Part shown: positions 3-20,882 of the stretch, piece after piece
Numbering within the stretch: position 1 is the first letter of the stretch
Layout of the letters: each line of letters starts with the position of its first letter
Source of the DNA: Planctomycetia bacterium
Lineage (GTDB): Bacteria; Planctomycetota; Planctomycetia; Gemmatales; HRBIN36
Assembly: GCA_016795155.1 (NCBI GenBank)
Contig: JAEUIE010000044.1
Location: forward strand, 124,001 to 188,000
Length of the DNA: 64,000 nt
Direction: 5' to 3'
Position numbers and translations under genes: made by a program
The notes under the pieces: generated by a model
What the model was told of the DNA's origin: nothing
The model's database searches: none
What the model saw: only the letters and a program-made list of their open reading frames with translations

Positions 3-827
3 TTACTCCCATCGTTTTAATTTCTTCTGCATACCCATAATCTGCAGCAAATTTTCTTCGCCATACTCCAGTTCAACCCAACCTGTTTGGATCAACAGAA
101 TACCCAGAAGAATACCAGCCAGGCATCCTGAAAGGTGTGCCATGTAGCCTATCCCGTCATGCAGATAGAAAATGTTGCCAAGCAGGTCGCAGACCAGATA
201 AAAGAGCACCAGCCAGCCTGAAGAGATGGTTAGCACACCGATACCGAAAGGGATTTGAACGTAAAAAATGCGAGCATCATTACGAGGGTAAAACACCAGA
301 CACAAACCGGCAATGCCCATGATGGCACCCGATGCACCGAGTGATGGAGTGAGATCACCTGCCGCATATTGCAATCCAACTCGCACAAAATCACTCACTA
401 TTCCAAGCGCGAGATAACACATCAGAAAGAGGAAGTGATTCAGCTTGGCATTGATGGCATTGCCGAAGAGAAACAGAAAGAACATGTTGCCAAGCAAATG
501 TCCCAAGTCGCCATGAACAAACATGGAGGTCACAGGCTGCCAGGGCCGCCAGGCTTCCGGATGCGTTGCCAGCGGCGTAACTTCTTTAGACCGCTCGAAC
601 TTCAACTCATTGATCAGCTTAGATAAACGCTCAACATCCTGCGGCGTTTTGCTCGCCTTAGTGCCAAGCTGATGTATCTCGATGATTCTCCTCGCATTAT
701 CCAGATCTGCCTTTTCAGGAAACCAGACCCAGTCTCCCAAAGTAATCAGGCAGGTAAACACGATCAGCAACCAGTTGGCGATGGGCAACTTCTGCATCGG
801 CACGTCGAGATGGTATGGCAGAATCAT
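3..827 (-). CDS. rhomboid family intramembrane serine protease
   Basis: Probable membrane-embedded serine protease (274 aa) that would cleave transmembrane substrates within the cytoplasmic membrane. The motif HGDLGHLLGN lies at 105-114, the nucleophile motif GASG places the serine at 166, and the partner histidine is H231 in AHLSG, so the catalytic dyad is complete. Several hydrophobic segments are visible from residue 17 to 248. A hydrophilic stretch of about 60 residues (35-95) separates the first segment from the HGDLGH region. The stop codon lies just inside the window edge, so the gene is complete. Its substrate and any partner on the far side cannot be read here. Confidence 0.92.
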   Translation of the reverse strand: MILPYHLDVPMQKLPIANWLLIVFTCLITLGDWVWFPEKADLDNARRIIEIHQLGTKASKTPQDVERLSKLINELKFERSKEVTPLATHPEAWRPWQPVTSMFVHGDLGHLLGNMFFLFLFGNAINAKLNHFLFLMCYLALGIVSDFVRVGLQYAAGDLTPSLGASGAIMGIAGLCLVFYPRNDARIFYVQIPFGIGVLTISSGWLVLFYLVCDLLGNIFYLHDGIGYMAHLSGCLAGILLGILLIQTGWVELEYGEENLLQIMGMQKKLKRWE

Positions 828-18790: not shown

Positions 18791-19603
18791 GTGAAAGTTG
18801 GAGGTTCGGGGAAGAAATCATGCTTATCCTCAGAAGCACTGTCGAGGTCTGTGCCATGGGCAAGGATGTTGGAGAACATCTGGGGCTACGGCAAGATTCA
18901 TGGTGAACTGAAAAAGTTGGGAATCAAGATCTGTGATACCACCGTGAAGAACATCCTGATTGCTGCAGGTATTGATCCCTGTCCCGAACGCGGCGACAAG
19001 CCCTGGGCGGAGTTTATCAAGCAGCATGCACAAACCTTGTGGGCAACGGATTTCTTCAGCAAGAAAGTCTGGACTCTCAGGGGATTCGTGGATGTTTTCG
19101 TGTTGTTCTTCATTCATATCGAATCGAGGCGTGTGATTCTCGGTGGTATCACGACGAATCCCGACAATACCTAGATGAAGCAGCAAGCCAGCAATGTTGG
19201 CATGCACTGGCACAAGGAAAAAGTGAAGCCAGAAACCTTGATCTGTGATTTCGATACCAAATACACCAGGGACTTTGAATCCATTCTGTAGGCTGAAGGC
19301 GTTGAACTGAAACGGGTTGGCCCCATGAAGCCGAACCTCAATGCTTATGCCGAACGATTTGTTCAGAGCATTAAGCAGGAAGCTCTGGATCATTTCATCT
19401 GCTTTGGTGAGGATCATCTGCGTCACATTGCCACCTGCTATGTTGATTATTACAACACGGAACGAGCACACCAAGGCATAGGCAACGTACCGCTGACAAA
19501 ACGGCGTATTCGGAAGTGGAAAGACACAGATAAAGCCAGTGCGATAGTTTCTACACTCCGTCTGGGTGGGCTTTTGAACAGCTACCACCGCCGAGCGGCG
19601 TGA
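18791..19603 (+). pseudogene. DDE integrase-type transposase with two amber codons
   Basis: One frame encodes an rve-type (IS3/IS481-like) transposase. WGYGKIHGELKKLG is followed by the core: WATDFFS (first Asp), LICDFDTKYT (second Asp) and NAYAERFVQSIKQEALD (Glu), then VDYYNTERAHQG. Two TAG codons interrupt it at 19172-19174 (where relatives have Trp, NT-W-M) and 19289-19291 (where Gln is expected), and the frame is otherwise intact between and after them. The N-terminal DNA-binding part is missing or frame-shifted before 18830. No terminal inverted repeats were found. It is best read as a dead insertion sequence. Confidence 0.72.
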
Positions 19604-19737
19604 GTTGGTAGCCACTCGCCAGTCTTCGCCAAGATTTAGGTTCCGTTTCGCTCTCATGATCATTCGTGATCGGACCTTCGTGTTTGTCTGTTCAGTTCTG
19701 GCTTTTCGGTCACTATTGTACCTGACGCAGTTAATAA

Positions 19738-20114
19738 TTAACTTCAGCAACAACAAGATATATTACAATAAACTCAAGAAACATGCCAAGAGTGAATACA
19801 TAAATATACTTACATTTTATCCTTTTAAATACGGAATATGTAAATATAAATGTACTAAATATTATTATCAATATTATCAATGAATTAATGGGTAGTACCT
19901 CCATATAATATCGATAATCAATTAAGTTTGGAGCTAATAATACATCAGATATTAAACCACACATGATTGGAAAAACCATGACAAAAACTAATGCGCTGAC
20001 TGCTGAATAGATGGCAAGTAACGGACGAAGCGCCTGTGCATCACGCAAAGTCCGTATGCCCATATATAGAATAAATGGCACTAGACCCCCTGCAATCATA
20101 AGTATGATAATCAT
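19738..20114 (-). CDS. AT-rich membrane protein of unknown function
   Basis: About 125 residues with four hydrophobic segments (MIIILMIAGGLVPFILYMG, LLAIYSAVSALVFVMVF, SLIILIIIFSTFIFTY, VFTLGMFLEFIVIYLVV). GGGGAA lies seven bases before the ATG at 20114. The frame ends at about 19731-19740. GC content is far below the surroundings and codons are AT-rich, so it was probably acquired. It sits between the dead transposase and the RAYT gene. No family was recognised. Confidence 0.5.
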
Positions 20115-20130
20115 CAGTGATTCCCCGCAC

Positions 20131-20153
20131 GGGTGCCATTGTCTGCCGAGATT
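20131..20153. repeat. partial copy of the RAYT-associated palindrome
   Basis: GGGTGCCATTGTCTGCC repeats the leading GGGTGCCAT of the complete palindrome that starts 23 bases later, but lacks the second arm. It looks like a truncated or degenerate copy. Confidence 0.5.
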
Positions 20154-20192
20154 GGGTGCCATAGTCTGGTCGTACTCGACCTGACTATGGTG
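20154..20192. repeat. REP-like palindrome downstream of the RAYT gene
   Basis: GGGTG followed by a stem: CCATAGTC pairs with GACTATGG, then one T-T mismatch, then GGTCG pairs with CGACC around the loop TACT. The same plan (7-8 bp, one mismatch, 5 bp, 4-base loop, GGGTGCCATAG lead) recurs on the other side of the RAYT gene at 20815-20851 with a different stem sequence. Confidence 0.75.
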
Positions 20193-20210
20193 TGACCACG
20201 CGAAAGCGGT

Positions 20211-20798
20211 TTAGTTGTACTCCCTGAGTGGATCATCGGGTAACGTCTTCCAATCAATCGGAACTCGTCCCACGGTGCGTGTCGCTCGATAGTCCCGGTA
20301 GCTGGACCATTCCCATTCCTCTGGCAGCACCACCAACTTTCGCCGTAGCGGGTTCTCATGGCAGTAATTGATCTTCTCCCATATCCTGGCATCTGTCCAG
20401 AGGTTCAGATCAAATCCTCCACCCGGTTGCCAGAATCGATAACACTGTCGGCCGGAGGGTTGCACATCCAGAAGCTTTTTCAGAAACGCCGGGTGATGCA
20501 GTTTCAAATACTTCACCGCTGCACGGGTGACACCCAGTTTCAGTGATGACAGAAAGTCGCTGGTGCTGTAGGCGTGGCGATGGGGGATCACCACCAGATG
20601 CACGTGCTCAGGCATGATGATATAGGCCCAGCAGCCGAAGTCGTGTTGTTTCAAGGTTTTGTAGAGTGATCTGATGAACCAGAGTCGGGATCGATCTTTA
20701 GAAAGTAGCTGCAACCTTTTCCAGCACGAGAAGGTGAATAAGTGAGCGTGGCCTGCATCGTTGTAGTGCTTGAGTCGGCGACGATGCGGATTTGACAT
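20211..20798 (-). CDS. REP-associated tyrosine transposase (RAYT, IS200-like)
   Basis: A 195-residue single-strand DNA nuclease of the Y1/HUH family, of the group thought to spread or process REP palindromes. The HUH motif is MPEHVHLVV with H65 and H67. The C-terminal part has YCHENPLRRKLVVLPEEWEWSSY, typical for RAYTs. Where many relatives carry the catalytic tyrosine (FYDH or GGGYD) this protein reads GGGFDLN, so the nucleophile is not obvious. GGAG precedes the ATG. The gene is flanked closely by palindromes of the same plan (20154-20192 and 20815-20851), the second only 16 bp upstream of the start. Confidence 0.85.
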   Translation of the reverse strand: MSNPHRRRLKHYNDAGHAHLFTFSCWKRLQLLSKDRSRLWFIRSLYKTLKQHDFGCWAYIIMPEHVHLVVIPHRHAYSTSDFLSSLKLGVTRAAVKYLKLHHPAFLKKLLDVQPSGRQCYRFWQPGGGFDLNLWTDARIWEKINYCHENPLRRKLVVLPEEWEWSSYRDYRATRTVGRVPIDWKTLPDDPLREYN

Positions 20799-20814
20799 TG
20801 AGACTCCGTTATCG

Positions 20815-20851
20815 GCATAGCTAGCGTGAGTACACGCAAGCTATGGCACCC
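20815..20851. repeat. REP-like palindrome upstream of the RAYT gene
   Basis: On the minus strand it reads GGGTGCCATAGCTTGCG and continues into its second arm: CATAGCT pairs with AGCTATG, one A-A mismatch, GCGTG pairs with CACGC, 4-base loop. It keeps the lead and loop of the downstream element while both stems differ in a compensated way. Confidence 0.75.
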
Positions 20852-20856
20852 TTGCT

Positions 20857-20882
20857 GGGGCGAGGTCTCCTGATCTCGCCCC
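20857..20882. repeat. GGGGCGAG hairpin next to the REP-like element
   Basis: Arms GGGGCGAG and CTCGCCCC around a 10-base loop, six bases from the REP-like palindrome. It may be part of the same composite repeat. Confidence 0.5.

Follow-up and report, generated by a model that had tools for sequence, protein, structure and literature searches.

A probable REPtron in a Planctomycetia bacterium: a RAYT gene amid dispersed REP hairpins with a GTGC foot

The window analysed here is a stretch of 64,000 nucleotides from a Planctomycetia bacterium (assembly GCA_016795155.1, contig JAEUIE010000044.1), in which an intact RAYT gene lies between two palindromes (Table 1). The initial annotation had described a palindrome with a shared plan on each side of the gene, and this description was borne out at both positions. 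The two palindromes are convergent, and each consists of the lead GGGTGC followed by 7 bp, a T.T mismatch, 5 bp and a TACT loop. The left one reads GGGTGC CATAGTC T GGTCG TACT CGACC T GACTATG on the forward strand, while the right one, 17 nt ahead of the RAYT start codon, reads GGGTGC CATAGCT T GCGTG TACT CACGC T AGCTATG on the reverse strand. Folded as single-stranded DNA, they reach -14.3 kcal/mol (z = -7.9) and -12.6 kcal/mol (z = -5.2), respectively, well beyond their shuffled versions, and the left palindrome has two extra outer pairs, which give it 9 bp compared with 7 bp in the right one.

Two smaller features had been noticed beside the palindromes. The partial third copy is present (from 20131), but it belongs to a 27-nt stretch, GCACGGGTGCCATTGTCTGCCGAGATT, ahead of the left REP; this stretch is found identically at C10:57327 and nearly identically at C10:58-59 kb, both at the 3' ends of RAYT remnants, and it also occurs as the 5' half of a complete hairpin at C10:6123. 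Because it recurs at other RAYT 3' ends, we dropped its interpretation as a decay product. The GGGGCGAG hairpin next to the right REP is also real (-11.9 kcal/mol), but it stands outside the REP family: its exact pattern occurs once in the genome, and it is not considered here as part of the REP system. The window gave no match to Rfam.

Table 1. Position of the features at the RAYT locus and of related features elsewhere in the genome (G000; C, contig).
Feature	Position	Strand	Description
Broken IS3/IS481-type transposase	18791-19603		roughly 500 bp away from the RAYT unit
C-terminal integrase-core fragment	19325-19603	+	matches rve_3 and an IS3 model
Membrane-protein-like ORF	19731-20162	-	called 5' end runs into the left REP
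Extension GCACGGGTGCCATTGTCTGCCGAGATT	20127-20153	+	holds half a REP; recurs at two other RAYT remnants
REP, 3' side of RAYT gene	20154-20189	+	stem CATAGTC-GGTCG, T.T mismatch, loop TACT, foot GGGTGC
Short RAYT 3' flank (GTGTGACC... on the + strand)	20190-20210	-	common to RAYT 3' ends at C10, C14, C22
RAYT (TnpA_REP-like Y1 HUH transposase)	20211-20798	-	195 aa, intact; motifs EHVH, FWQ, YCHENP
REP, 5' side of RAYT gene	20816-20851	-	stem CATAGCT-GCGTG, T.T mismatch, loop TACT, foot GGGTGC
GGGGCGAG hairpin	20857-20882		loop TCTCCTGA
RAYT paralogue	G000:C22:103248-103799		45% identity; in-frame stop; own bracketing hairpins
RAYT paralogue	G000:C32:35461-35988		40% identity; own bracketing hairpins
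Doublet type A			CCTGGTT-GGTCG with CATCGTT-GCCGG
Doublet type B			CACGGTT-CGTCG with CATTGTT-CGCTG
Doublet type C			CATGGTT-GTGTG with CATAGTC-GCCGG, plus variants
Type S examples	G000 C3:227897, C12:59796, C57:12986		stem CACGGTT-GCGTG
TCTCCTGA-loop hairpins	L140 (G000:C55) 44-72 and 661-683		inverted

The protein combines the HUH motif, the catalytic tyrosine of Yx3NP and the W-Q motif that define RAYTs, and its EHVH, FWQ and YCHENP motifs are kept across 27 relatives. Its score against the NCBIfam model REP_Tyr_transpos is 70 bits, under the cutoff of 80. When the protein was searched against the PDB as a single sequence, only chance matches were obtained, and a clade profile was required; the profile of the 27 relatives placed the E. 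coli TnpA_REP (4er8) at the top (1.2e-13), with the IS200/IS605 transposases behind it. As is typical of RAYTs, the gene has inverted REPs on both sides, and its copy number is low, unlike that of an IS, with one intact copy, two paralogues (40-45% identity) and fragments.

These characteristics bear on the possibility that the locus is an ordinary IS200/IS605-type IS, whose ends would be the hairpins and whose debris would be the other copies. Such an element would belong to the same enzyme superfamily and have a hairpin at each end, and RAYT fragments do occur elsewhere in the genome. IS200/IS605 ends, however, are recognised on one strand, and these elements have same-strand hairpins and multiple near-identical copies, whereas the hairpins here are inverted, a single intact copy coexists with solo hairpins and compact pairs that number about 100, and the nearest solved relative is TnpA_REP rather than an IS200/IS605 transposase. 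We consider this origin highly improbable.

To look for copies, we used a search with GGGTGCCATAG, which relies on sequence alone and is thus free of structural selection; it found nine places, compared with two for the reversed pattern used as a control, and eight of the nine form a hairpin, with varied stems. The genome-wide covariance search proposed in the initial annotation, with a model built from 20 copies whose seeds were picked by pairing, returned 108 copies at E<=1, about 90 of them at E<=0.01. On 0.86 Mb of the same genome, the model found nothing at E<=1 except the window pair; as these stretches were hand-picked, lie outside the other listed matches and, in the case of 40 of them, form a non-random sample, this is a test for missed copies and not for density. 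Only 12% of the REPs fall within ORFs of at least 150 aa, in comparison with 68% of random stretches. The family therefore has the many, mainly intergenic, hairpin-forming copies expected of REPs.

Covariation in the stems is strong. Over 90 distinct copies, 96.4% of the pairing cells are paired, and there are 217 double changes, where shuffles give 66 and slid controls 7-20, in an alignment that was fitted to the structure and so favours pairing. Of 89 copies, 84 retain the T.T mismatch, and the loop is TACT in 70 of 108. The claim that the stems differ through compensating changes holds with a qualification: among 35 distinct stems, there is free variation at the pairs 10:33, 16:27, 17:26 and 18:25 and partial freedom at 9:34, which leaves about four free base pairs, and hardly any change in the lead, the mismatch, the loop or the remaining pairs. 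With covariation far above that of shuffles and the mismatch retained, the proposal that compensation reflects selection on structure gains support. Stems could in principle become compensated without any selection if replication repaired imperfect palindromes from a template, a mutational process that is known to make palindromes perfect. Nevertheless, such repair should erase the T.T mismatch first, and this is precisely what nearly all copies keep; selection on a mismatched hairpin is thus the better reading, and repair a quite unlikely one. The retained mismatch agrees with the requirement of the E. coli TnpA_REP for a bulge that must be unpaired and is essential (PMC8266576). The roughly 100 natural copies amount to a mutational scan that separates fixed elements (foot, mismatch and tip) from free pairs.

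The initial annotation had also proposed to check whether copies are paired as REPINs. Nineteen of the 20 neighbouring pairs within 400 bp are convergent, one is tandem and none is divergent, which is the geometry of REPINs, and many of the other copies are single. In the compact pairs (up to 167 bp), the two stems are unlike in 17 of 17. Three doublet types, A, B and C, occur repeatedly (Table 1). The REPIN at C38:6426/6481 combines both stem types that bracket the window RAYT: set against the right hairpin of the window, its right one has changes at 2 of 36 bases, and a more decayed CATAGTC-GGTCG forms its left hairpin. The RAYT unit and this REPIN therefore share two ends, from which it follows that the unlike stems in the window represent the two ends, left and right, of a single type of element. 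We do not claim selection against like pairs in this genome; one of 19 convergent pairs is identical, compared with an expectation of 0.8-2.2, and members of a subfamily share descent. Heterodimers with unlike stems have been reported among Pseudomonas REPINs (PMC3116915) and GTAG/CGTC REP dimers (PMC3733652), one of them being GTAG-24 of P. aeruginosa, which has long, mismatched stems. The regular left/right heterodimers of this genome and of a second one (G228, below) bear on an observation for which PMC3733652 sees no obvious explanation.

The largest subfamily is type S, with at least 37 single copies. Its flanks are conserved for about 14 nt upstream and about 34 nt downstream, about 87 bp altogether, with an additional outer complementarity, ATGCGG / CCGCAT. 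This conservation beyond the hairpin, together with the intergenic placement of the copies, would suit hairpins that act mainly as RNA signals (terminators or mRNA stabilisers), roles that are known for REPs, in which case selection on RNA structure would explain the compensation. Against this stand the absence of a T tract and of a terminator-like site, the conservation of an unpaired foot and of the T.T mismatch, the convergence of the pairs and the association with RAYT genes throughout the phylum, and we regard a mainly RNA-based role as unlikely.

Another question is which enzyme has spread the scattered REPs. The RAYT paralogues on C22 and C32 have bracketing hairpins of their own, and in the C32 paralogue each end carries a convergent pair with a GTGG foot and unlike stems. 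RAYT 3' fragments on C10, C9, C50 and C14 adjoin hairpins of the window REP family, and they look like internally deleted elements. It may be, then, that paralogous or lost RAYTs each spread a subfamily and that the window RAYT serves its own ends and perhaps a few REPINs. The existence of several subfamilies, each distinct in its stems, spacers and flanks, the hairpins of the window family next to the 3' remnants of other RAYTs, and the paralogues' own hairpins all speak for this possibility, to which we give appreciable weight without considering it the probable one. On the other side, the foot, the mismatch and the tip are identical in all subfamilies, so that one enzyme could serve all of them, and the hairpins of both paralogues follow plans other than that of the window family.

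Copies were expected only in genomes with the RAYT, and this expectation stood for all but one of the 60 relatives. In the 61 genomes searched, there are 88 copies in the genome of the window, two in G003 and none in the rest. A RAYT at E<=1e-10 occurs in 6 of the 61 genomes and, within its own family, only in the genome of the window; elsewhere in the family, the matches to NF047646 come from distant Y1 proteins, and we rejected them as cognate RAYTs. G003 likewise encodes distant Y1 proteins only, the best of them 25% identical and lacking bracketing hairpins. Its two copies, which no detected cognate RAYT accompanies, argue mildly against a restriction to RAYT genomes; they could be relics, strays or companions of a RAYT gene that falls in a gap of the assembly, which consists of 470 contigs.

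Of 294 genomes sampled from the phylum, 29 contain RAYT relatives. At 37 of their genes, the outward GGTGNC hairpins no more than 300 bp away have C in 24 cases, G in 28, A in one and T in one, in comparison with 2 C, 5 G, 2 A and 2 T in a far zone of larger size. The total for outward GGTG[C/G]C is thus 52 near these genes versus 7 far from them. The pattern GGTGGCANKGACAAAC has 15 to 145 copies per genome in five genomes, where the control pattern has zero, and smaller REP sets exist in further genomes. Family f46 (G228, G318 and G182) has large REP populations with a GGTGGC foot and 47 to 145 exact matches per genome. In G228, 17 of 18 close convergent pairs have unlike stems, compared with an expectation of 53% (p = 2e-4, with shared descent ignored). 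In G181 and G058, the same outer-stem pattern is matched by both ends of the close pairs, which indicates that unlike ends are common and not universal. These results extend the known REPs by families whose foot is GTG[C/G] and whose associated RAYT clade is spread across the whole phylum.

The foot is GTGC in nearly all copies of the window family, outside the GT[A/G]G of the canonical definition, and the system is accordingly filed as a REP variant; GTGG feet are found in relatives and in the C32 family. For one enzyme, a change in the foot shifted the cutting site predictably (PMC8266576), and the corresponding guide rule predicts GC or GA for GTGC and CC or CA for GTGG. GC is found at a fixed flank position in 20 of 43 copies of the A/C families, compared with 2.6 expected; GA in 5 of 10 of subfamily B; GC, the top dinucleotide, in 6 of 18 of G181; and CA in 13 of 29 of the GTGG-footed f46 family, as the rule predicts. 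The GTGG family of G058 has TT, contrary to the rule. These figures are exploratory, since the search ranged over several positions and dinucleotides and the copies are related by descent. On the RAYT tree, the foot base C/G changes 7 times versus 10 in shuffles, a weak clustering (row L152 is a bad extraction), and no single RAYT residue accounts for the choice of C or G; we draw no conclusion from this comparison. We offer only tentatively, as a rather doubtful proposal, that the foot is an IS200-like guide in this RAYT clade and that GTGG/GTGC switches in evolution have retargeted cutting and insertion. Natural variants now make it possible to test the guide rule, which had been demonstrated with a single enzyme (PMC8266576).

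Among the closest known systems is the REPtron of E. coli (TnpA_REP 4er8; y, z1 and z2 REPs; group 2 / subclass 2.2). Both have a HUH Y1 enzyme, imperfect palindromes with an unpaired bulge, inverted REP pairs and several REP subtypes (PMC8266576, PMC6006769), but the foot and bulge are GTAG and AA-GC in E. coli, and GTGC and a single T.T mismatch here. According to a profile alignment, the guide contacts W94 and Q95 of the E. coli enzyme would be kept, E100 would be D, and H101 and R104 would not be kept. Convergent REP pairs are shared with the Pseudomonas REPINs (PMC3116915) and the GTAG/CGTC dimers (PMC3733652), from which our family differs in that it has a GTGC foot and in that its left and right stem types are found at the ends of a RAYT-carrying unit as well. 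REP-like structures lacking GT[AG]G are known from TnpA_Y1 subclass 2.6 and class 3, and class 3 has been reported mainly from Planctomycetes (PMC6006769). The class 3 motifs W[TA] and YV[VI][AENY]EQ do not match the WQ and YCHENP found here, whereas those of 2.6 (NH[LIV]H, WQ, YIH[QN]NP) match partially. The TIRYT/TIRtron (PMC3733652) has a related tyrosine transposase and inverted flanking sequences as well; unlike its ends, those described here are self-complementary palindromes. Terminal inverted repeats with GGGGWSAS, which characterise TIRYTs, were not found at the locus, and GGGGCGAG misfits this motif and occurs on one side only.

Taken together, anatomy, copy number, pair geometry, covariation and phylogenetic restriction support the RAYT/REP-system reading. 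The locus is very probably a REPtron, a RAYT (TnpA_REP) gene amid its own REP hairpins, in a genome across which about 100 REPs and REPINs that share this plan are dispersed, and its description as a RAYT/REPIN system with a GTGC foot in place of the canonical GT[A/G]G is well supported. In the mechanism that we propose, a single-stranded copy would fold into the foot GGGTGC, a 7-bp lower stem, the T.T mismatch, a 5-bp upper stem and the TACT loop. Recognition by the Y1 HUH enzyme would rest on the foot, the mismatch and the tip (GTAC.C) and would not extend to four base pairs, which would drift, constrained only by pairing. Cutting beside the hairpin on a single strand, the window RAYT would allow the interval between two convergent hairpins to be moved or copied. 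The RAYT unit would be a gene between hairpins, and REPINs would be miniature units whose left and right ends are of the same kinds; the flanking stems would be unlike because each end of the element has its own hairpin and the two are maintained in a fixed order. Binding, cleavage, mobilisation, present activity and the assignment of subfamilies to one RAYT or another are what we infer from these patterns; neither an empty site nor movement was seen. The GTGC foot, the copies in G003, the type S copies, which are not tied to the window RAYT, the two paralogues and the choice of the covariance seeds by pairing count against this reading.

Some neighbouring features deserve mention in their own right. 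The broken IS3/IS481-type transposase lies on the left side of the RAYT unit. In the membrane-protein-like ORF, which found no match in Pfam, the RAYT unit is located at the start of the gene. The hairpin next to the right REP has a counterpart on C55, where two inverted hairpins with the same fixed loop, TCTCCTGA, and quite different stems flank a hicAB-like gene pair and adjoin a REP. No further instance was found in the 0.86 Mb scanned, and these TCTCCTGA-loop hairpins may constitute a small separate repeat family.
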